Under the pieces are notes generated by a model, which saw only the letters and a list, made by a program, of their open reading frames with translations, was not told where the DNA came from and did no database searches. A stretch of 64,000 nucleotides of DNA. Origin: Dyella mobilis. GTDB lineage: Bacteria; Pseudomonadota; Gammaproteobacteria; Xanthomonadales; Rhodanobacteraceae. Shown here one piece after another: positions 38,406 through 49,310 of this stretch (position 1 is the first letter of the stretch; each line of letters starts with the position of its first letter). The stretch covers positions 682,001-746,000 of the forward strand of contig NZ_JADIKF010000039.1 of assembly GCF_016904945.1 (NCBI RefSeq), written 5' to 3'. Position numbers and translations under genes: made by a program.

Positions 38406-39803
38406 CTAGACGAGTCCGGTTGCGTAGAACACCGCGATCACCACCAATACCGCCGCGGTCTTGATCACGGTGATGGCGAAAATGTCCCGGTAAGACTGCC
38501 GGTGCGTCAGGCCGGTCACGGCCAGCAGGGTGATGACGGCGCCGTTGTGAGGCAGGGTATCCATGCCACCGGAAGCCATTGCCGCCACCCGGTGCAGCAC
38601 TTCCATCGGAATGCCCGCCGCCTTGGCGTTGTGGATGAACGTGTCGGCCATCGCCGCCAGCGCGATGCTCATGCCGCCGGAAGCCGAGCCGGTGATGCCG
38701 GCCAGGGCGGTCACAGAGATGGCTTCGTTGACCAGTGGATTGGGCACGGCATGCAGCGCGTCGGCTACCGCGCGGAAGCCGGGCAGGGCCGCGATGACCG
38801 CGCCGAAGCCGTATTCGGAGGCGGTGTTCATCGATGCCAGCAGGGCGCCGGAGACGGCAGCCTTGCTCCCTTCCGCGAAATGTTTCGTTACCGGCCCCCA
38901 GGCAAACATCAGCACGCACAAGCAGCCCAGCAGCAAAGCGCCTTCCACCGCCCAGATCGCGGCGATTTTCGACACCTCCTGCACGACCGGCGGCGGATGG
39001 CCGATCACCGCCGGCACAAACGATTGCACGCTTCCGTACCAGTGCGGAATCCAGCGCGTCAGCAACAGATTGCCCACGCCCACCAGCACCAGCGGCAGCA
39101 GCGCGATCAAGGGGTGGGCCAAACGGCCGCCCTCGAACGGCGCGGGCTCGTTGACCAGGCTGGTGCCATAACCTTCGCCGTTCGCCACGGCCTTGCGCCG
39201 GCGCGATTCCAGATAAAGCATGCCCACGATCAGGATGAACAGCGAACCGAGCGTACCCAGCCACGGCGCGGCCCATGCGTTGGTGCCGAAGAACGAAGTG
39301 GGAATGATGTTCTGGATTTGCGGCGTGCCCGGGAGGGAATCCATGGTGAAGGTAAACGCGCCCAGCGCGATGGTGCCCGGGATCAGGCGCTTGGGAATAT
39401 TCGATTCGCGGAACAATTCCACCGCGAACGGATAGACCGCGAACACCACCACGAACAGCGACACGCCGCCGTAGGTAAGCAACGCACACACCAGCACGAT
39501 CGACAGGATCGCGCGGCTGCGCCCGACCAGACCGATGGTGGACGCCACGATGGCCTTGGAGAATCCGGATAGCTCGATCAGCTTGCCGAATACCGCGCCA
39601 AGCATGAATACCGGAAAATACAGCTTGAGAAAGCCGACCATCTTGTCCATGAACAGGCCGGTGAACATCGGCGCGACCAGCGCAGGATCGGTCAGCAGCA
39701 CCGCACCCAACGCGGCTATCGGTGCAAACAGAATCACGCTGTAGCCGCGGTACGCCGCCAGCATCAGGAAGCACAATGCCGCCAGCACGATAAGAAAGGC
39801 CAT
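38406..39803 (-). CDS. GntP-family carboxylate:H+ symporter
   Basis: The product is 465 aa with 12-14 transmembrane helices: FLIVLAALCFLMLAAYRGYS, PVFMLGAVFGKLIELSGFSKAI, SMNTASEYGFGAVIAALPGF and ASGGMDTLPHNGAVITLL. The family imports gluconate and related hydroxy acids, and some members carry D-3-hydroxybutyrate. The start ATG at 39803 begins the first helix; longer frames upstream have no membrane sequence. It is divergent from a TonB-dependent receptor, and the shared region carries the same 14-bp motif as the 3-hydroxybutyrate oligomer hydrolase promoter, favouring 3-hydroxybutyrate as substrate. Confidence 0.85.
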   Translation of the reverse strand: MAFLIVLAALCFLMLAAYRGYSVILFAPIAALGAVLLTDPALVAPMFTGLFMDKMVGFLKLYFPVFMLGAVFGKLIELSGFSKAIVASTIGLVGRSRAILSIVLVCALLTYGGVSLFVVVFAVYPFAVELFRESNIPKRLIPGTIALGAFTFTMDSLPGTPQIQNIIPTSFFGTNAWAAPWLGTLGSLFILIVGMLYLESRRRKAVANGEGYGTSLVNEPAPFEGGRLAHPLIALLPLVLVGVGNLLLTRWIPHWYGSVQSFVPAVIGHPPPVVQEVSKIAAIWAVEGALLLGCLCVLMFAWGPVTKHFAEGSKAAVSGALLASMNTASEYGFGAVIAALPGFRAVADALHAVPNPLVNEAISVTALAGITGSASGGMSIALAAMADTFIHNAKAAGIPMEVLHRVAAMASGGMDTLPHNGAVITLLAVTGLTHRQSYRDIFAITVIKTAAVLVVIAVFYATGLV

Positions 39804-39880
39804 TCCTGTTGTTCCTTGCGCGTTCGTCAACCGATGTCTTGGGTGACGAGTATCCCGGCACGCTTGCATGGCGCGGCACT

Positions 39881-39894
39881 GTACGAAAGTACAA
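39881..39894 (-). promoter_or_regulatory. 14-bp motif TTGTACTTTCGTAC, copy 1
   Basis: The plus strand reads GTACGAAAGTACAA, the exact reverse complement of 47428-47441. It contains the palindrome GTAC-GAAA/TTTC-GTAC. It lies in the 168-base space between the GntP-family gene (leftward from 39803) and the TonB-dependent receptor gene (rightward from 39972), where a response regulator could control both. Confidence 0.65.
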
Positions 39895-39971
39895 GTGTGG
39901 CCGCGCCGCGCCCTGCCTATGCTGCGCAGCATGGGCATCCGTGGGTGGATGCACACATTGCGAGGGGAAAC

Positions 39972-42197
39972 ATGAAGCGTAGCCATTTGAGTCTGGCGAT
40001 CGGTCTGGCCGTGGGGTTGGCCGGCGCGGCGCCGCTGTATGCGCAACAAACCAGCGGAAACGGCAGCCAGGACAGCAATAGCCCGGCCAACGCCAAGAAG
40101 CTCGATCAGATCGTCGTCACGGCGCGCAAACGCGAAGAGACCCTGCAAGATGTGCCGATTGCGGTAACGGCACTGACCGCGCAATCGCTCTACGATCAGA
40201 ACGTGCAGGACTTGAGCGATCTGCAAGGCAAGGTGCCGGATCTGCAGATCTATGCCGCACGCGGCTCCAACACCACCTTGACCGCCTATATCCGCGGCAT
40301 GGGGCAGGCCGATCCCACCTGGGGTTTCGATCCTGCGGTTGGCATCTACCTGGACGACGTCTACATGGCTCGTCCGCAGGGCACCTTGCTGGATGTGTTC
40401 GACGTGGATCGCATCGAAGTGCTGCGCGGCCCGCAAGGCACGCTGTACGGCAAGAACACCATCGGCGGCGCAATCAAGTACGTATCCAAGCCTTTGCCCA
40501 CCAAGACGGAAGGTTCGGTGGAAGTCACCACCGGCACGCACGGCGAAAAAGACGTGAAGGCGGCGCTGGGCGGCGCATCGGCCGATGGCGTGTGGCGCGG
40601 GCGGGTGGCGGTGGCCAGCGAGCACAACGACGGCTTCGGCACCGACCTGCTCAATGGCAGCCGCAACGGCAACAAGAACACCAATGCGGCACGCGCCACC
40701 CTCGGGTTCTTTCCGACCAGCAATTTCAATGCGCAGTTGGAAATCGACGGCATGCACGACAATTCCAATCCGCGCGGCGCGAAGATGCTGGAGGCCAACG
40801 AGTTCTACCCGCAGTACCAGCCGCTATCGAGCGACTTCAATACGCGCAGCGACATGCCGCAGCTCAACTGGACGCGCATGAAAGGTGCCGCGCTGACCTT
40901 GAACTGGATCGTCAGCCAGGATTGGACGCTGAAGTCGGTTACGGCCTATCGCAGTTCGAAAACCGACAGCAATATCGACTTCGACACCTTGCCGGTTGCG
41001 GTGGCCGACGTCGGCGCAATTTACCAGGATCATCAGTTCTCGCAGGAAATTCAGGCCAATTACGATGCGGGTGGCGTGATTCACGGCGTGATGGGGCTTT
41101 ATTACTTCAACGGATCGGCGGCCGGCGAAATCCACAACGTGTTTCTTGGCTCGCCGCCGTACAGTCTGCTCGGCTTTTCCGAATACGGCAGCACCGGCGG
41201 CAGCATGGGCACGCGCAGCTATGCCGGCTATGGCGATTTCACCTGGGATATCAGTCCCTCGTGGAGCCTGGATGTGGGTGCGCGCGTCACCGACGAAACC
41301 AAGACGGCGGTGATCCAGAACTACGAATATTCCGACGACACGTTCACAGTGCCGATCGGCGTGCTGGCCGACTTCACCGGCTCGCATACGTCGCACAACA
41401 TATCGCCCAAGGTATCGCTCGATTACAGCTTGAGCGACGACGTGAAGCTGTATGCCAGCTATAGCGAAGGCTTCCATTCCGGCGGTTACAACATCCGCGC
41501 CAACTGTGCCGTGATTCCTTCGTCGTGCAAGCCGATCCAGGACGAGAATGTGAAGTCCTACGAACTCGGCAGCAAGATGAGCTTCTTCGACAACAGCCTG
41601 ATGATGAACACGGCGCTGTTCCACAACATCTATTCCAATATCCAGTTGTCGGTGTTTACGTCCTACACCGAGCCGAACGGCAGCGAGGGTTTCTTCGGCG
41701 ACTTCACCAATGCGGGCAAGGGTCACATCGACGGCCTGGAGGAAGAGTTCGCCTGGTATCCCTCGCAGAACTGGACCTTCAGCGGCAATTTCGCCTACCT
41801 GCATACCAAGTACACCGAGTTCTACAGCGGTGGCGTCAATATCGCGAACACCCAGTTCTTCACCAACGCACCGAAATGGGCGGGCGGCTTGACCTTGCAG
41901 CGCAGCTTCCCGCTGGCCAGCTACGGCGAGCTCGATGCGCGCCTCAACTACAGCTACCAGACCTCGGTGTGGCCGGAAACGACCTTGTCGCCGCTGATCA
42001 AGCAGGGCTCCTATGGCCTGGTCAACGCGGGGCTGATCTGGCAGATCGACAAGCCTTGGTCGATCAGCCTGCAAGGCAGCAACCTGGGCAACAAGTCGTA
42101 TCGCACCACCGGCTACAACATCGCCGCGCTTGGCATCGTCACCGGCTTCTATGGACCGCCGCGCATGGTTACGCTATCGGCCAAGTATACGTTCTAG
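39972..42197 (+). CDS. TonB-dependent outer-membrane receptor of the 3-hydroxybutyrate locus
   Basis: The product is 741 aa. Signal peptide MKRSHLSLAIGLAVGLAGA ends at YAQ; the TonB box is LDQIVVTARKREETLQD. The plug has VPDLQIYAARGSNTTLTAYI and VLRGPQGTLYGKNTIGGAIK, and the barrel ends in VTLSAKYTF. This is a classical TBDR close to the siderophore/Fec-type subfamily, but the neighbours point to an organic polymer or oligomer. GAGGGG lies 5 bases before the ATG. The PHB depolymerase gene follows at 72 bases. Confidence 0.93.
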   Translation: MKRSHLSLAIGLAVGLAGAAPLYAQQTSGNGSQDSNSPANAKKLDQIVVTARKREETLQDVPIAVTALTAQSLYDQNVQDLSDLQGKVPDLQIYAARGSNTTLTAYIRGMGQADPTWGFDPAVGIYLDDVYMARPQGTLLDVFDVDRIEVLRGPQGTLYGKNTIGGAIKYVSKPLPTKTEGSVEVTTGTHGEKDVKAALGGASADGVWRGRVAVASEHNDGFGTDLLNGSRNGNKNTNAARATLGFFPTSNFNAQLEIDGMHDNSNPRGAKMLEANEFYPQYQPLSSDFNTRSDMPQLNWTRMKGAALTLNWIVSQDWTLKSVTAYRSSKTDSNIDFDTLPVAVADVGAIYQDHQFSQEIQANYDAGGVIHGVMGLYYFNGSAAGEIHNVFLGSPPYSLLGFSEYGSTGGSMGTRSYAGYGDFTWDISPSWSLDVGARVTDETKTAVIQNYEYSDDTFTVPIGVLADFTGSHTSHNISPKVSLDYSLSDDVKLYASYSEGFHSGGYNIRANCAVIPSSCKPIQDENVKSYELGSKMSFFDNSLMMNTALFHNIYSNIQLSVFTSYTEPNGSEGFFGDFTNAGKGHIDGLEEEFAWYPSQNWTFSGNFAYLHTKYTEFYSGGVNIANTQFFTNAPKWAGGLTLQRSFPLASYGELDARLNYSYQTSVWPETTLSPLIKQGSYGLVNAGLIWQIDKPWSISLQGSNLGNKSYRTTGYNIAALGIVTGFYGPPRMVTLSAKYTF

Positions 42198-42207
42198 GTT
42201 CTCCCCG

Positions 42208-42244
42208 GAACCGGCCCGTGGACTCCCTCGCTACGGGCCGGTTC
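42208..42244 (+). terminator. Rho-independent terminator after the receptor gene
   Basis: GAACCGGCCCGT and ACGGGCCGGTTC pair over 12 bp, followed by TCTCTTTT. Transcripts of the receptor probably end here in part, before the depolymerase gene. Confidence 0.7.
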
Positions 42245-42268
42245 TCTCTTTTGGCAAAGGATAAAGCG

Positions 42269-43297
42269 ATGCGCTGGATCAAATGTTTGTGCGCGGGCCT
42301 GGTGCTGGCCGCTGCCGTGGCGCATGCCGATGACACCGTGCAGCCGCTGCCCAGATTGAAGCTGGATTCAGCGCGCACGGCGGTGACTGGATTGTCTTCC
42401 GGTGCCTATATGGCGACTCAGATGCAGATCGCCTATCCGGACATTTTTCCGAATGCGGCACTGGTGGCGGGCGGCCCATATGGCTGCGCGCAGGACAAAC
42501 TGCAGGTTGCTCTGAGCACTTGCATGAAAGGCACGCCGGCGCCGGATGTTCAGGCATTGGTGGCCTCGGCCAAGCAACGAGCAGCTTCCGGCGACACGGG
42601 GCCGTTGCAGGATCTGGCCCATGCCCGCGTCTACCTGCTGCACGGTAGCGAAGATGCAATAGTTGCGCCGGCGGTGGCGGAGGCTGCGGCGCATTTCTAT
42701 GAAGCTCTGAAGGATCAGCCTGGCTTGGCGGGCTTGCAGGTGAACGACGACGGCCAGCGTGCATTCGGCCACAACCTTCCCACGGCAGCCAGCGGCGACG
42801 ATTGCGGCAAATCGATTTCGCCGTATCTGGGGCATTGCGGGTTTGATGCGGCGGGTGCGATCTTCGCGCAATTATTCGGTACGCCTGCGCACGCCGCCGC
42901 TGCGGAAGCACGCGGCACGCTGCAGCGTTTCGATCAGGATGCGCTGCGCCCGGACGGCAAGGACGCGCTGCTGGCGTCCACTGGCTATCTCTACGTGCCG
43001 CCCGATTGTGCCGCGGGCAAACGCTGCGGTTTGCTGGTGGCCTTCCATGGGTGCAAGCAGAATGCAGATGCGGTGGGGCAGGCGTTCGTGAAGGATGCGG
43101 GCTTCAACCGCTGGGCCGACGTTTACGACGTCGCCATCCTGTATCCTCAAACCAGGGCGAGTTTCGCGCCGTTGAATCCGCAGGCATGCTGGGATTGGTG
43201 GGGATATTCAGGCAGCCATTACGACACGCGCACGGGCGTGCAGTTGCTGTGGGTGGTGAATGCGGTAAAGGCGCTGGGGTTGCCGGTGAAGCATTGA
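42269..43297 (+). CDS. Poly(3-hydroxybutyrate) depolymerase family esterase
   Basis: The product is 342 aa with a signal peptide (ending AVAHA). The lipase box is GLSSG with Ser43, followed by AYMATQMQIAYPDIFPNAAL and a Cys (GPYGCA) typical of this PHB depolymerase group. A second half has LLVAFHGCKQNADAVGQAF, AILYPQT and WDWWGYSGSHYDTR with the catalytic histidine region. It would cleave PHB or hydroxybutyrate oligomers outside the cytoplasm. It is 64 bases before the sensor kinase gene and probably belongs to its regulon. Confidence 0.85.
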   Translation: MRWIKCLCAGLVLAAAVAHADDTVQPLPRLKLDSARTAVTGLSSGAYMATQMQIAYPDIFPNAALVAGGPYGCAQDKLQVALSTCMKGTPAPDVQALVASAKQRAASGDTGPLQDLAHARVYLLHGSEDAIVAPAVAEAAAHFYEALKDQPGLAGLQVNDDGQRAFGHNLPTAASGDDCGKSISPYLGHCGFDAAGAIFAQLFGTPAHAAAAEARGTLQRFDQDALRPDGKDALLASTGYLYVPPDCAAGKRCGLLVAFHGCKQNADAVGQAFVKDAGFNRWADVYDVAILYPQTRASFAPLNPQACWDWWGYSGSHYDTRTGVQLLWVVNAVKALGLPVKH

Positions 43298-43318
43298 TGG
43301 TTGGCGTTGATGACGGTT

Positions 43319-43342
43319 CGCTTCCCTGTATGCAGGGAAGCG
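43319..43342 (+). terminator. 10-bp inverted repeat after the depolymerase gene
   Basis: CGCTTCCCTG, TATG, CAGGGAAGCG lies 21 bases after the depolymerase stop and 19 bases before the sensor kinase start. It has no T-run. Confidence 0.45.
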
Positions 43343-43361
43343 GGCACGAGCGAAGGGCGCG

Positions 43362-46300
43362 ATGCTAAGCGCCGGGCTCATTGCCACCGCTGCATTGATC
43401 TGGTTGGGCCTGCTGTTCGGCGTGGCCGTCATCGGCGAGCGCCGCCCGCACCTGTTCGAGAAACGCTGGGCGATCATCTACGCGCTTTCGCTCGCCATCC
43501 ATTGCACGTCGTGGACGTTCTACGGCACCGTGACCCAGGCCAGCCGCTCCGGCTGGTGGTTGCCGCCGACGTTTGTCGGGGCGATCCTGATGTACGTGTT
43601 CGCGGTATCGGTACTGCGCCGGCTGGTGCAGCTGGCGCGTGAATACAACGCGGGTTCGATCGCGGATTTGATCGTGGTGCGCCTGGGGCGGCATGCCGGA
43701 CTGGCCGCGCTGGTGACGGTGGTGGTGCTGGTGGGCATCGTTCCGTATATCGCCTTGCAGCTCAAAGCGGTGGCGATGAGTTACACGCTGTTGCGAAGAG
43801 GTGAGCTGGCCGAATCGGCGCCTTGGCACGACAGTGCGTTGTACGTAGCCCTGCTGATGGCGTTGTTCGCGATGTTGTTCGGCACGCGGCGCGCTTCGGC
43901 CATGGCGCACAATCGCGGCCTGGTGCTGGCGATGGCGTTCGAATCCTTGTTCAAGCTTGGCGCGATGCTGGCGCTGGGTACGCTGCTGTTTACGCCGCTG
44001 CCGGCCGGGGCGGCGATCGGTGCGCCGCCGCCGCACGAAAGCAGCGGGTTTCCTGCGCTGATCCTGCTCGGCGCCTTGGCCATGTTTACCTTGCCTCATC
44101 AATTTCATGCCGGCGTGGTGGAGTGCCGCGACAGCTCGCACGTGCGCACGGCGCGTTGGCTGTTTCCGCTGTACATGCTGCTGATCGCCTTGCCGATCCT
44201 GCCCTTGGCGAAATTGGGCGACGCGTGGCTGGCACCCAGCGGTGTGCCGTCCGATTTGTATGTGCTTGCGTTGCCGTTGGCGCGTGAGCAACACGGTCTG
44301 GCCTTGCTGGCATTTCTCGGCGGCCTGAGCGCGGCCACCAGCATGGTGGTGGTGGCGACGCTGGCGTTGAGCCTGATGGTGGTCAATCATTTCATTGCGC
44401 CGTTGCGCGTGCGTGCGGGTTGGGGACGCGATGAGCGCGGCGATCTGCGCGGAGAGGTGCTCAACCAGCGCCGTGCGGCAATCCTCGCGGTAATTCTGCT
44501 GGCCTGGGCGTATAGCCGCTTGCTGGCGCGCAACGATGCGCTGGCGGATATCGGCGCGATTTCGTTTTCCGCCCTGGCCGGCTTGGCGCCGGCTTTGCTG
44601 GCTGCGGTATATCGGCCGCAATTGGGGCCGCGTGCCGTGGTGTGGGGTCTGGCGGTCGGCACCCTGGTGTGGTTTTACGTGTTGCTGCCGGCCGGCGTTT
44701 CTTCGTTGCCTGATTGGTTGCAGCAAGGTCCGTTGGGGTGGCGCTGGCTGACGCCGGACGGATTCATGGGGCTGGACGACTGGAGTCGCCTTGGCCGCGC
44801 GGTGATGCTGAGTCTGGTGGCTAACGTGCTGACGATGCTTGCTGTAGCCAATACGCAGTATGGACGCCGGCGCTGGACAGCCGGTGTGAGCAACGTGAGC
44901 GTGGTGGAGCTGCGCGCCCTCGCCGAGCGTTTTTTGCCGCACGAACGGGTCGAGCGCCTGTTCGCCGGCATGGATACGCAAGGTACGGCCGGCAGCGCGC
45001 GGGTCGCCGAGGTCGAGCACGAACTGGCGGCGGTGATCGGTGCGGCATCGGCCAGGCTGTTGCTGGAAGTGGTGCATCGGCAAGGGCGGGCCGAGTTGGA
45101 TACGGTGGCGGCCATCGTCGGCGAGGCGGCGCAGGATCTGCACTTCAGCCAGCGCGTACTGGAAGCCGCGCTGGAAAACATGAGCCAGGGCATTTGCGTG
45201 GTAGACAGCGACTTGTGCCTGGTCGCCTGGAACAGGCGCTATGTTGCGCTGTTCGGCTATCCGCCCGAATTGCTGCAGGTGGGCTTGCCGGTGGCGGAAT
45301 TGATTCGCCGCAATATTGCCGCGGGCATTATCGGTCCGGGTGACGTGGATGCGCGCGTGCGCCGCCGCCTTGCGCACATGCGCGCGGGCACCGAATTGCT
45401 GTCTGAGCGCCTCTTCCCCGATGGCACCGTGGTGGAGATTCGCGGTCACCCGATGCCAGGCGGTGGTTACGTGGCAACGTTTACCGACGTTACCGCGTTC
45501 CGCGAAGCCGAAAACGAACTCACGCTGGCCAACGAAACGCTGGAGCTGCGCGTGGCTGAACGCACGCGCGAGCTGGCGCAGGCGAGCGCGCAGGCGCATC
45601 GCGCCAATGAGGCGAAAAGCCACTTCCTGGCAGCGGTCAGCCACGACCTGATGCAACCGCTGCATGCGGCGCAACTGTTTGCACATGCACTGGCCGGACG
45701 CGGTTATGACGCTGCCAATGCGCGGCATCTCAACGACTCGCTGGCTGCTACGGAAGGTTTGCTGGCGGGGCTGCTGGATATTGCGCGACTGGAAGGCGGG
45801 CGCCTGCATCCGGAGCCGCGCGATTTTCCGCTGGCGGAAGTGCTTGAGCCGCTGGCGGCGGAGTTTCGTGCGCTGGCGACCGACCGCGGCGTGCGCCTGG
45901 GCGTGATCGAAAGCCGCGCCTGGGTGCGCTCCGATCCCTTGCTGCTGCGGCGCGTGTTGCAGAACTTTCTTTCCAATGCGTTGCGCTATAGCGAGCGCGG
46001 ACGTGTCTTGCTCGGCGTTCGCCGTCATGGCGCCGGCTTGCGCCTGGAAGTGTGGGATACCGGCCCGGGTATTGCCGAAGCGGAGCGCGGCATCATCTTC
46101 GAGGAATTCCGGCGCGGCAGTGCGGCAGGCGGCGGGCAGGGGCTCGGCTTGGGACTGTCGATCGCACAACGCGTTGCAACGTTGCTGGAACATCCATTGG
46201 GGCTTCGCACCTGGCTGGGACGCGGCAGCGTGTTCTATCTCGACCTGCCACGTGCAACGTCGGCTTATCACGCTTCGGCGCCGACCATGGATGAGGTGCG

Positions 46301-46673
46301 TCCGCTGCCTGCCGGGCGTGCCTTGATCCTGGATAACGAACCTGCCGCGCTGGCGGCGCTAGCTGCCTTGCTGGGCAGTTGGGGCTGGGAAGTGCATGCG
46401 GCTGCCCAGCCTGGGCACGCGCTCGCGGCGCCTTGGCGACCCGATCTGTGCGTGCTGGATTATCACCTGGACCGGGGGCAGACCGGACTGGAAGTGCTGG
46501 ACGCGCTGCGTCGCCAACACCCGCAACTGCAGGCGGTGATGCTTACCGCCGATCGCGATGGAGCATTGCGCCAACGCATCCTCGAAGCCGGTGCGACAGT
46601 GTTGTACAAGCCGCTCAAGCCGCTGGCGATGCGTCAGGTGATGTTGCGCGTAATGGCGGCTCGGGTGCAGTGA
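43362..46673 (+). CDS. Hybrid sensor histidine kinase with solute:sodium symporter-type N-terminus
   Basis: The product is 1103 aa. The first 500 or so residues hold about 13 transmembrane helices of the sodium:solute symporter family. A PAS domain follows (about 600-710, MSQGICVVDSDLCLVAWNRR), then the HisKA box with His761 (AAVSHDLMQPLHA), the ATPase domain (LRRVLQNFLSNALRYSERG, GGGQGLGLGLSIAQRV) and a C-terminal receiver with Asp1033 (CVLDYHLDRG). This architecture is that of the CrbS/MxtR/ErcS' kinases that control acetate, ethanol or short-chain acid use. It faces its likely partner, the LuxR-type regulator at 46691-47359. Confidence 0.93.
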   Translation: MLSAGLIATAALIWLGLLFGVAVIGERRPHLFEKRWAIIYALSLAIHCTSWTFYGTVTQASRSGWWLPPTFVGAILMYVFAVSVLRRLVQLAREYNAGSIADLIVVRLGRHAGLAALVTVVVLVGIVPYIALQLKAVAMSYTLLRRGELAESAPWHDSALYVALLMALFAMLFGTRRASAMAHNRGLVLAMAFESLFKLGAMLALGTLLFTPLPAGAAIGAPPPHESSGFPALILLGALAMFTLPHQFHAGVVECRDSSHVRTARWLFPLYMLLIALPILPLAKLGDAWLAPSGVPSDLYVLALPLAREQHGLALLAFLGGLSAATSMVVVATLALSLMVVNHFIAPLRVRAGWGRDERGDLRGEVLNQRRAAILAVILLAWAYSRLLARNDALADIGAISFSALAGLAPALLAAVYRPQLGPRAVVWGLAVGTLVWFYVLLPAGVSSLPDWLQQGPLGWRWLTPDGFMGLDDWSRLGRAVMLSLVANVLTMLAVANTQYGRRRWTAGVSNVSVVELRALAERFLPHERVERLFAGMDTQGTAGSARVAEVEHELAAVIGAASARLLLEVVHRQGRAELDTVAAIVGEAAQDLHFSQRVLEAALENMSQGICVVDSDLCLVAWNRRYVALFGYPPELLQVGLPVAELIRRNIAAGIIGPGDVDARVRRRLAHMRAGTELLSERLFPDGTVVEIRGHPMPGGGYVATFTDVTAFREAENELTLANETLELRVAERTRELAQASAQAHRANEAKSHFLAAVSHDLMQPLHAAQLFAHALAGRGYDAANARHLNDSLAATEGLLAGLLDIARLEGGRLHPEPRDFPLAEVLEPLAAEFRALATDRGVRLGVIESRAWVRSDPLLLRRVLQNFLSNALRYSERGRVLLGVRRHGAGLRLEVWDTGPGIAEAERGIIFEEFRRGSAAGGGQGLGLGLSIAQRVATLLEHPLGLRTWLGRGSVFYLDLPRATSAYHASAPTMDEVRPLPAGRALILDNEPAALAALAALLGSWGWEVHAAAQPGHALAAPWRPDLCVLDYHLDRGQTGLEVLDALRRQHPQLQAVMLTADRDGALRQRILEAGATVLYKPLKPLAMRQVMLRVMAARVQ

Positions 46674-46690
46674 ACGCGGCGAATCGGTGC

Positions 46691-47359
46691 TTACACGTGA
46701 TGCGCATCGCCGCCCGGTTCGCCCAGATCGAGCGAGCGCAACAGTACGCTCGCCTGGGTGCGATTGCGTACGCCGAGTTTTTCGAAGATGGCGGTGGCGT
46801 GTGCTTTCACCGTGCGCTCCTGGATGCCCAGGCGATCGGCGATCTGCTTGTTGAGCAGGCCTTCGGCGAGCAGGCTCAGCACGCGATATTGCTGTTCGGT
46901 AAGTCGTGCCAGTCGCGCGGCCAGATCCGTATCGGCAGGGTTGCCGGGCAGGGCGGCGACGCTGCGTGACAGGGTTGGCGGCAGCCAGCTGCCGCAGTCG
47001 AGCACGGCGGCGACCGCTTCGCCGATCTGACCAGGGTCCGCACTTTTGGGAATGAAGCCGGCGGCACCGTGATCGAGTACGCGTCGCACCACCTGCGGTT
47101 CGTCGTGCGCGGAAACCACCAGCACTGCAGCCGCCGGATATTGGCCGCGCAGGGCGGCGAGTCCGGATAGGCCGTGGCTCCCGGGCATGTGCAGGTCCAG
47201 CAGCACCAGGTCGATGTCGGGATCGGCGGACAGCGCATCGAGCACGCCGGGCAGGTCGCTGGCCTCCTGCACGCTGCAGGTGTCCAGGTGCTCGCTTGCC
47301 GCCTGGCGCAGCGCGGCGCGGAACAAGGGATGGTCGTCGGCGATCAACAAGCGTGGCAT
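46691..47359 (-). CDS. LuxR/NarL-type response regulator
   Basis: The product is 222 aa. The receiver domain is LLIADDHPLFRAALRQ with the phospho-acceptor in DLVLLDLHMPG, and the LuxR helix-turn-helix is LTEQQYRVLSLLAEGLLNKQ through LGIQERTVKAHATAIFEKLG. It resembles the AgmR/ErdR/CrbR regulators paired with symporter-type kinases. It is convergent with that kinase (17 bases) and divergent from the 3-hydroxybutyrate oligomer hydrolase gene. The ATG at 47359 is chosen over an upstream start at 47371. Confidence 0.92.
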   Translation of the reverse strand: MPRLLIADDHPLFRAALRQAASEHLDTCSVQEASDLPGVLDALSADPDIDLVLLDLHMPGSHGLSGLAALRGQYPAAAVLVVSAHDEPQVVRRVLDHGAAGFIPKSADPGQIGEAVAAVLDCGSWLPPTLSRSVAALPGNPADTDLAARLARLTEQQYRVLSLLAEGLLNKQIADRLGIQERTVKAHATAIFEKLGVRNRTQASVLLRSLDLGEPGGDAHHV

Positions 47360-47427
47360 GACGCGAACCATAGCGGGGGCCGCAGGTCGCGTCGAGGTAA
47401 AAAATGGCGGGTCCCCGGGTAAGCATG

Positions 47428-47441
47428 TTGTACTTTCGTAC
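47428..47441 (+). promoter_or_regulatory. 14-bp motif TTGTACTTTCGTAC, copy 2
   Basis: The motif lies 37 bases before the hydrolase start at 47478 and 69 bases upstream of the response regulator start at 47359. It is identical to the reverse complement of 39881-39894. It is the best candidate for the binding site of the local LuxR-type regulator. Confidence 0.65.
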
Positions 47442-47477
47442 GATAGCCCAGCCCACCGGGCTTGCTATGGTAGGCGG

Positions 47478-49310
47478 ATGAATATCCGCACCTGTCTGAT
47501 TGGTATCGCCGCCCTGGCGTTGGTTGCCGGCGTGGCACGGTCGTCGACGACGGAGCCTTCGATGCAAGGGATCGAATTTGTGCGGGGCGAGGTGAGCGTC
47601 ACCACGCATCGCGATCACGACGATCTGCTCAGTGCCGGGCTCGGGCTCGCCGGCCTGAAAGGGGCGCTGGCTCCCTTTGCGGACGCCGCGCATCCCACCG
47701 TTGAGGAATTGCGCCGGCGCGCGATCCAGACCAGTTGGAAAGGCATTGCCGATCTCGGTCCGCTGGGCGGCTACGGCACGGTGTACGGCGCGGTGCCGGA
47801 CGTTCCGGGGCGCGAATTCGAAGCCTTTGCGATGATTCCGGGAGCGCACGCGCCGCATCGCGTGCTGGTGCAGGTGCCCGATCATTTCGATCAGGCGCAT
47901 CGCTGCCTGGTGGTGACGGCGTCGTCCGGTTCGCGCGGCATTTATGGCGCGATTGCGCTGGCCGGCGCATGGGGCCTGCCGCGCGGCTGTGCAGTGGCGT
48001 ATACGGACAAAGGCACGGGGTCCGGCTACTTCGATTTCGCCGACGACAGCGGCGTGGCACTGGATGGCCAGCGCGCCAAGCGCGGCACTGCCGCGTTGGA
48101 GTTCGAGCCGGTTGCTACGAAGGGCGAAGGCATCGCCGTCAAGCACGCGCATTCGGGCGACAACCCGGAGGCGGATTGGGGGCGGCACGTTTTGCAGGCG
48201 GCACGCTTCGGCCTGGCGATGCTGGATCGCGCGTTTCCCGAGCAGGCACCGTTCACTGCGCAGAACACCAAAATTATTGCCACCGGTTTGTCGAACGGCG
48301 GCGGCGCGGTGTTGCAGGCGGCCGGTATCGATGATCAGCACTTGCTGGCCGGCGTAGTGGCGCTGGAGCCCAACGTGCACGTGCCTGGGCACGGGCGAGC
48401 GCTGTACGACTACGCGAGCGAAGCGGCGTTGTGGTTGCCGTGCGCTCTGGTCGATCAGCGTTTCGCATCGGCGCCGTTTGCGCGCGATGCGCACGGTGCG
48501 CAACATGCGGCGTGGGTAACCCGGTGCGCGAGTTTGCACGCGCAAGGGCTGTTGAAAAGCAGCACGCTGGATGCGCAGGCCAACGAAGCCTACGAACATT
48601 TGCGCAGCACCGGTTGGACCGACCAGGCGATGGCGACGGCGGCTTCGTCCACCGCGCTCGATTTGTGGCGGGTGATCGGTGTCGCCTATGCCTCCGCGTA
48701 TTTGCGTCGTGGCGCCGACGACATGCCATGTGGCTATCGTTACCAGGCACTGATCGACGGCAAGCCCGGCGTGGCTGACGAGGCTACGCGCGCAAGCTGG
48801 TGGGCGGATGCGTCGGGCATTCCCCCCGGCAACGGCATCGGTCTGTTTGGCGGCACGGACAACGGCGCCGACCCGCAGCTGGTCGGTATCAACTGTCTGC
48901 GGCGCTTGTGGACCGGCGATGATGCGGATGCGCGTGCCTTGCACGTGTCGGTGCGGGCCTTGGCTGTGCATCTACCGCGCAAGGATCTGCCGCTGTGGGT
49001 GATGCAGGGTGCGGACGACGGTCTGCTGCCGACGGCGTTCACCTCGGAACCTTATGTCGCGTGGCTACGCGAGGAAGGGCGCCGGCCGCTGTATTGGAAA
49101 GTGCCGCATGCGCAGCACTTCGATGCCTTCCTCGCCTTGCCGGGTTTCGGTGACCGGCACCTGCCGTTGTTGCCCTACGGCTACGCGGCGTTGGACCGGT
49201 TGTGGATGCATTTGTATCAGGGCGCGCCCTGGCCGGAGCAAGTGCCGGTGCCGCAAGGGCGGGCGCGTGGTGCGGGTGCGCTGGAGCGAGCGGCGTTGGC
49301 GTTGCCTTGA
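47478..49310 (+). CDS. D-(-)-3-hydroxybutyrate oligomer hydrolase family protein
   Basis: The product is 610 aa, close to the known size of the family. The signal peptide is NIRTCLIGIAALALVAGVAR. The catalytic serine is Ser272 in GLSNGGG. Other family segments are GSRGIYGAIALAGAWGLPRG, YTDKGTGSGYFDF, LPLWVMQGADDGLLPTAF and a C-terminal VPHAQHFDAFLALPGF with the histidine. It splits 3-hydroxybutyrate oligomers to monomers, presumably in the periplasm. The ATG at 47478 gives the signal peptide; longer frames were not used. Downstream gene ends 5 bases away, convergent. Confidence 0.9.
   Translation: MNIRTCLIGIAALALVAGVARSSTTEPSMQGIEFVRGEVSVTTHRDHDDLLSAGLGLAGLKGALAPFADAAHPTVEELRRRAIQTSWKGIADLGPLGGYGTVYGAVPDVPGREFEAFAMIPGAHAPHRVLVQVPDHFDQAHRCLVVTASSGSRGIYGAIALAGAWGLPRGCAVAYTDKGTGSGYFDFADDSGVALDGQRAKRGTAALEFEPVATKGEGIAVKHAHSGDNPEADWGRHVLQAARFGLAMLDRAFPEQAPFTAQNTKIIATGLSNGGGAVLQAAGIDDQHLLAGVVALEPNVHVPGHGRALYDYASEAALWLPCALVDQRFASAPFARDAHGAQHAAWVTRCASLHAQGLLKSSTLDAQANEAYEHLRSTGWTDQAMATAASSTALDLWRVIGVAYASAYLRRGADDMPCGYRYQALIDGKPGVADEATRASWWADASGIPPGNGIGLFGGTDNGADPQLVGINCLRRLWTGDDADARALHVSVRALAVHLPRKDLPLWVMQGADDGLLPTAFTSEPYVAWLREEGRRPLYWKVPHAQHFDAFLALPGFGDRHLPLLPYGYAALDRLWMHLYQGAPWPEQVPVPQGRARGAGALERAALALP

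Follow-up and report, generated by a model that had tools for sequence, protein, structure and literature searches.

The closest described counterpart of the sites reported here is ACTU, the motif bound by the regulator CrbR in Pseudomonas fluorescens (Sepulveda and Lupas 2017, PMC5715377). Four CrbR-controlled sites in that organism have the cores TACCATCGTC, TACTAAGGTC, GACTTACGTC, and TACCATGGTC, and the tested sites have KACYWWSGT in common (PMC5715377). The CrbR site at acs lies at -52 to -36, immediately upstream of the RpoD promoter, and CrbR-dependent activation was abolished when the acs repeat was mutated (PMC5715377). We analyzed a 64,000-nucleotide stretch of Dyella mobilis DNA (the window), in which two intergenic regions carry the same 14-bp sequence. 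Its core, TACTTTCGTA, matches the ACTU consensus [GT]AC[CT][AT][AT][CG]GTC at positions 1 to 9 (TACTTTCGT) and has A, not C, at the tenth. The sequence comparisons below suggest that this 14-mer is very likely the DNA site of the adjacent CrbR/ErdR-type regulator, and that the polyhydroxybutyrate (PHB) use genes around it are switched by an SLC5-type kinase/regulator pair. The best reading of the locus would be that a CrbS/CrbR-type system has been re-targeted, from acetate to the use of polyhydroxybutyrate/3-hydroxybutyrate.

The locus starts with a GntP-type permease gene on the minus strand (38406 to 39803), whose substrate is probably 3-hydroxybutyrate. Its product matched no Pfam family, with E as loose as 10, although plasmid-borne relatives at 71 to 73% identity carry the annotation GntP family permease. 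Next come three plus-strand genes, encoding a TonB-dependent receptor (39972 to 42197; PF00593 and PF07715), an extracellular short-chain PHA depolymerase with a type 2 catalytic domain (42239 to 43297; NF050059, 324.8 bits against a cut-off of 280), and a hybrid histidine kinase (43362 to 46673) with an SLC5 symporter-like N terminus followed by PAS, HisKA, HATPase, and receiver domains. The proposed site binder, a CrbR/ErdR-like LuxR-type response regulator, is encoded on the minus strand (46691 to 47359), divergent from a plus-strand gene for a 3-hydroxybutyrate oligomer hydrolase (47478 to 49310; PF10605, E 2e-123).

The regulator contains a receiver (Response_reg, PF00072) and a LuxR-type helix-turn-helix (GerE, PF00196), and is about 50% identical to CrbR-like proteins of Halomonas, Acinetobacter, and Marinobacter. 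Its best NCBIfam model is ErdR, which is CrbR, at 215.5 bits, below the cut-off of 390. The Acinetobacter (251.1) and Luteibacter (233.8) relatives also scored below this cut-off, so the ErdR model is narrow. On these scores the protein is filed as ErdR-like, not ErdR. Residues 14 to 492 of the kinase align to the SLC5-STAC part of CbrXA (PDB 10ED; E 8e-45), where the alignment ends; the PAS, HisKA, and HATPase domains come after this symporter-like region. The kinase N terminus did not reach the Pfam SSF family, which the Luteibacter relative does reach. SLC5/STAC histidine kinases have an SLC5 symporter domain fused to a kinase, as found here, with a STAC domain between the two. A paralogous ErdR-like regulator of about 53% identity lies beside a different membrane kinase in another genome of the genus (G001, contig C1; L110:7090-17479). 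Its neighborhood resembles a hydroxyproline-breakdown cluster, with proline-racemase-like, FAD oxidoreductase, DHDPS-like, and aldehyde dehydrogenase genes (named by eye); therefore, the ErdR-like family seems to have been put to use for several substrates. Three regulator orthologs (G006:C20:43421-44080, G065:C6:45700-46359, and G079:C24:142313-142966) have one internal stop codon in the aligned stretch, which may mark the onset of decay or an early natural end.

The 14-mer TTGTACTTTCGTAC occurs at 47428 to 47441 on the plus strand, upstream of the oligomer hydrolase gene (site 1), and as an exact reverse complement at 39881 to 39894, between the divergent permease and receptor genes (site 2). 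Both candidate sites are intergenic. Site 1 lies between the start codons of the regulator (47359, minus) and the hydrolase (47478, plus), and site 2 between those of the permease (39803, minus) and the receptor (39972, plus). The core, GTACTTTCGTAC, is an inverted repeat of the form GTAC-N4-GTAC, here GTAC-TTTC-GTAC, at 47430 to 47441 and 39881 to 39892; this symmetry goes beyond the original prediction. At 39875 to 39900, the permease/receptor site has additional arms, conserved in many genomes as GGCACT-GTAC-N4-GTAC-A-AGTGCC. This longer inverted repeat is absent at the hydrolase site.

Pattern searches of the 5.18-Mb genome gave the copy numbers. With no or one mismatch, these two copies were the only ones, and three further matches appeared at two mismatches. 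The other window matches at up to three mismatches, at 2378 and 17762, had three mismatches each, which is chance level. Between them, the intergenic regions of 168 and 106 bp share a longest word of 14 bases, whereas the longest in 4,000 shuffles was 13, reached once. Therefore, the original prediction of an identical motif in both promoters, with no other copy and beyond chance identity, was borne out at both positions and across the whole genome, where unrelated near copies were absent. The only third GTACYTTSGTAC in the genome lies within an EmrA/HlyD-like coding sequence and was rejected as a site. Many other genomic GTAC-N4-GTAC repeats belong to a dispersed REP-like element, AGTGAGGGAGTGTACGTCCGTACACGACCGAG..., whose core GTACGTCCGTAC occurs in well over ten copies (for example in L007, L011, L016, L017, L019, and L020 near 1501 and, in L198, about 690 bp before acs). 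Elsewhere in this genome (G000:C31:16000-60000), very long open frames (6036 and 9228 codons) that encode many acyl-activating domains are probably a giant nonribosomal peptide synthetase cluster.

The repeat has a fixed distance to -10-like boxes on three sides. The box TATGGT of the hydrolase (47466 to 47471, plus) begins 24 nt after the repeat, TATGCT of the receptor (39918 to 39923, plus) 25 nt after it, and GATACT of the permease (39849 to 39854, minus) 26 nt after it. This spacing is conserved. On the hydrolase side, 28 of 29 loci have TANNNT at an offset of 24 to 25; on the receptor side, 18 of 20 have it at 25 to 26, these being the sole offsets counted; and on the permease side, 35 of 35 have [GC]A[TC]ACT at 24 to 26. 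Boxes 24 to 26 nt past the repeat at three promoter types place it immediately upstream of the predicted promoters. On the hydrolase side, a conserved GATGGC-like sequence occupies the place of the -35 box, as expected for an activator-dependent promoter. Because the hydrolase ATG follows its -10-like box by 7 nt, this message may be leaderless.

The regulator gene is different. Its -10-like box is mostly about 13 nt from the ATG, and the distance from box to repeat varies: offsets were 57, 41, 42, and 39 in the genus, and 24 to 25 only in three distant loci. With no fixed spacing, control of the regulator gene itself is unsupported in the genus, and its place in the regulon is unproven. The permease, receptor, hydrolase, and regulator genes had been proposed to form one regulon under the symporter-type two-component system. 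This is supported for the first three genes: the sites are conserved, they occur together with the regulator, and they match the published CrbR site. For the regulator gene, the promoter spacing does not support it.

To follow the site within the genus we used 16 genomes, 7 of which have the regulator (identity of at least 84%). In all 7, the exact 14-mer stands about 45 to 51 nt upstream of the hydrolase start, in an intergenic region that has otherwise diverged over much of its length. On the receptor side, TTGTACYTTCGTAC is kept in 6 of 6 genus genomes that have the receptor, with the repeat 91 to 92 nt before it. The 9 genomes without the regulator had an intact repeat once (G004, before the hydrolase and with no close regulator ortholog), degraded forms three times, and none five times. 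Hardly any other copies with up to one mismatch were found per genus genome, and near matches elsewhere (L058, L059, L063, L066, and L067) were set aside as unrelated to PHB genes and at background level.

Beyond the genus, the regulator was used as a query against 84,980 species. Loci with similar neighbors were found in Rhodanobacter, Lysobacter, Stenotrophomonas, Thermomonas, Arenimonas, and Vulcaniibacterium. They carry GTAC-N4-GTAC upstream of the hydrolase and/or the receptor, with a center that is mostly YTTS on one strand; the repeat recurs in Rhodanobacter, Lysobacter, Stenotrophomonas, and Arenimonas. Fifteen of 22 loci outside the genus have a perfect repeat on the hydrolase side, against an expectation of 0.002 per locus, a chance estimate that shared ancestry inflates; the conserved position is independent of such figures. 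Imperfect hydrolase-side forms were GGAC-N4-GTAC (four loci), GCAC-N4-GTAC (one), and GTAC-N4-GTCC (one). The Marinobacter, Halomonas, and Acinetobacter regulators (about 50% identity) had neither hydrolase nor repeat in such an arrangement. Among 117 family genomes, TTGTACYTTSGTAC gave 60 sites in 53 genomes, compared with 4 sites for the reversed control, and 23 of 24 examined loci sit between a divergent GntP-type permease and TonB receptor. At a regulator ortholog threshold that we chose (E 1e-65 or better), motif and regulator agreed in 98 of the 117 genomes (both in 52, neither in 46); one genome had the motif only and 18 the regulator only. Over six thresholds the Fisher p for this co-occurrence ranged from 7e-11 to 4e-17, values that shared ancestry inflates. 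Conservation at orthologous promoters, which had been named as a check on the motif, is thus present across genus, family, and order. The conserved sites at the same genes in many relatives point to one dedicated PHB-use switch.

Several observations weigh against assigning the site to the adjacent regulator. G004 has the repeat without the regulator, 18 regulator-bearing family genomes do not have the exact 14-mer form, the last core base is A where ACTU has C, and the regulator scores far below the threshold of the ErdR model. The G004 repeat would fit a conserved operator of a different transcription factor controlling the same genes, and GTAC-type palindromes of other kinds can serve other factors. 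We consider this quite unlikely, because the motif co-occurs with the regulator in the family, the site agrees in both sequence and position with that of the homologous CrbR, site and regulator gene share one intergenic region, and, where the regulator is missing from a genus genome, the repeat is degraded or absent in eight cases out of nine. A shared 14-mer arising by chance, or as a piece of the REP-like repeat with its own GTAC-N4-GTAC core, has a negligible probability. The REP-like element has a different center and long conserved flanks, whereas the 14-mer has two copies only; chance is excluded by conservation across genera at fixed promoter positions, and the 60 sites against 4 for the control, with 23 of 24 between permease and receptor, refute both versions.

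The pair could also be an ordinary acetate regulator (CrbS/CrbR), with the PHB genes merely added to an acetate regulon. Regulator and kinase have the family resemblance, the site resembles ACTU, and PHB breakdown feeds acetyl-CoA too. However, the single clear acs gene of the genome (G000:C33:414495) had no motif site within 700 bp upstream, the exact motif has no genomic copy outside the PHB locus, and the regulator and the sites go together with the PHB genes throughout the order. We regard an ordinary acetate regulon as unlikely. The enrichment upstream of acs that had been proposed as a check did not hold for this gene.

Under the preferred reading, a dedicated PHB-use switch, we infer the following scheme. 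With 3-hydroxybutyrate or a similar small acid as its signal, the SLC5-type hybrid kinase would phosphorylate the regulator. A regulator dimer may then bind GTAC-N4-GTAC at the -35 edge, recruiting RNA polymerase. Site 2 would serve the divergent permease and receptor promoters and site 1 the oligomer-hydrolase promoter, and the kinase gene itself is probably part of a receptor-depolymerase-kinase transcription unit. The route switched on would run from the extracellular PHB depolymerase through oligomer uptake by the receptor and hydrolysis to monomers to uptake by the permease. We lean slightly toward a broader statement, that a CrbS/CrbR-type system of Lysobacterales is a dedicated PHB/3-hydroxybutyrate switch with a kinase that senses 3-hydroxybutyrate, a near single-locus regulon, and a GTAC-N4-GTAC variant of ACTU. 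Our search of the open-access literature found no report linking CrbR-type systems with hydroxybutyrate, so the novelty is provisional: the kind of switch is known, and this use of it is apparently undescribed. Inputs are known for few SLC5/STAC sensor systems (acetate, histidine, and pyruvate), and 3-hydroxybutyrate is a testable new candidate that comes with a DNA site, promoters, and a full gene set. The repeat also offers a simple sequence tag for PHB-utilization loci across a bacterial order and a regulatory way into the degradation of bioplastics in the environment.

Compared with ACTU/CrbR, the locus has the same elements: an inverted repeat with the KACYWWSGT core and identical center spacing, a LuxR-type regulator of an SLC5-STAC kinase, and placement at the -35 edge (-52 to -36 for ACTU), with the starts here predicted from -10-like boxes. 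However, the arms are GTAC/GTAC here and GAC or TAC/GTC in ACTU; relatives with GGAC arms exist, and a Stenotrophomonas maltophilia relative has GGACCTAGGTCC before the receptor, which contains the full ACTU core. The targets also differ, being PHB-use genes at one locus rather than acs and actP. The domain plan of regulator and hybrid kinase is that of CrbS/CrbR (MxtR/ErdR), and ErdR is the best regulator model, but the regulator has only about 50% identity and 215.5 of 390 bits, is linked to PHB genes, and leaves acs without a site. CbrA acts with CbrB in carbon/nitrogen balance and histidine use, and CbrB is a different type of regulator from the one at this locus. The likeness to CbrA, an SLC5-STAC transceptor, is in the aligned kinase N terminus (PDB 10ED, PMC13022988). 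The motif of RpuS/RpuR in Sinorhizobium fredii is, unlike the one here, an imperfect direct repeat, and its substrate and target (mctP) differ; like the switch proposed here, that system is of the SLC5/STAC type, with one dedicated substrate (pyruvate there) and a conserved promoter motif (PMC9100948).
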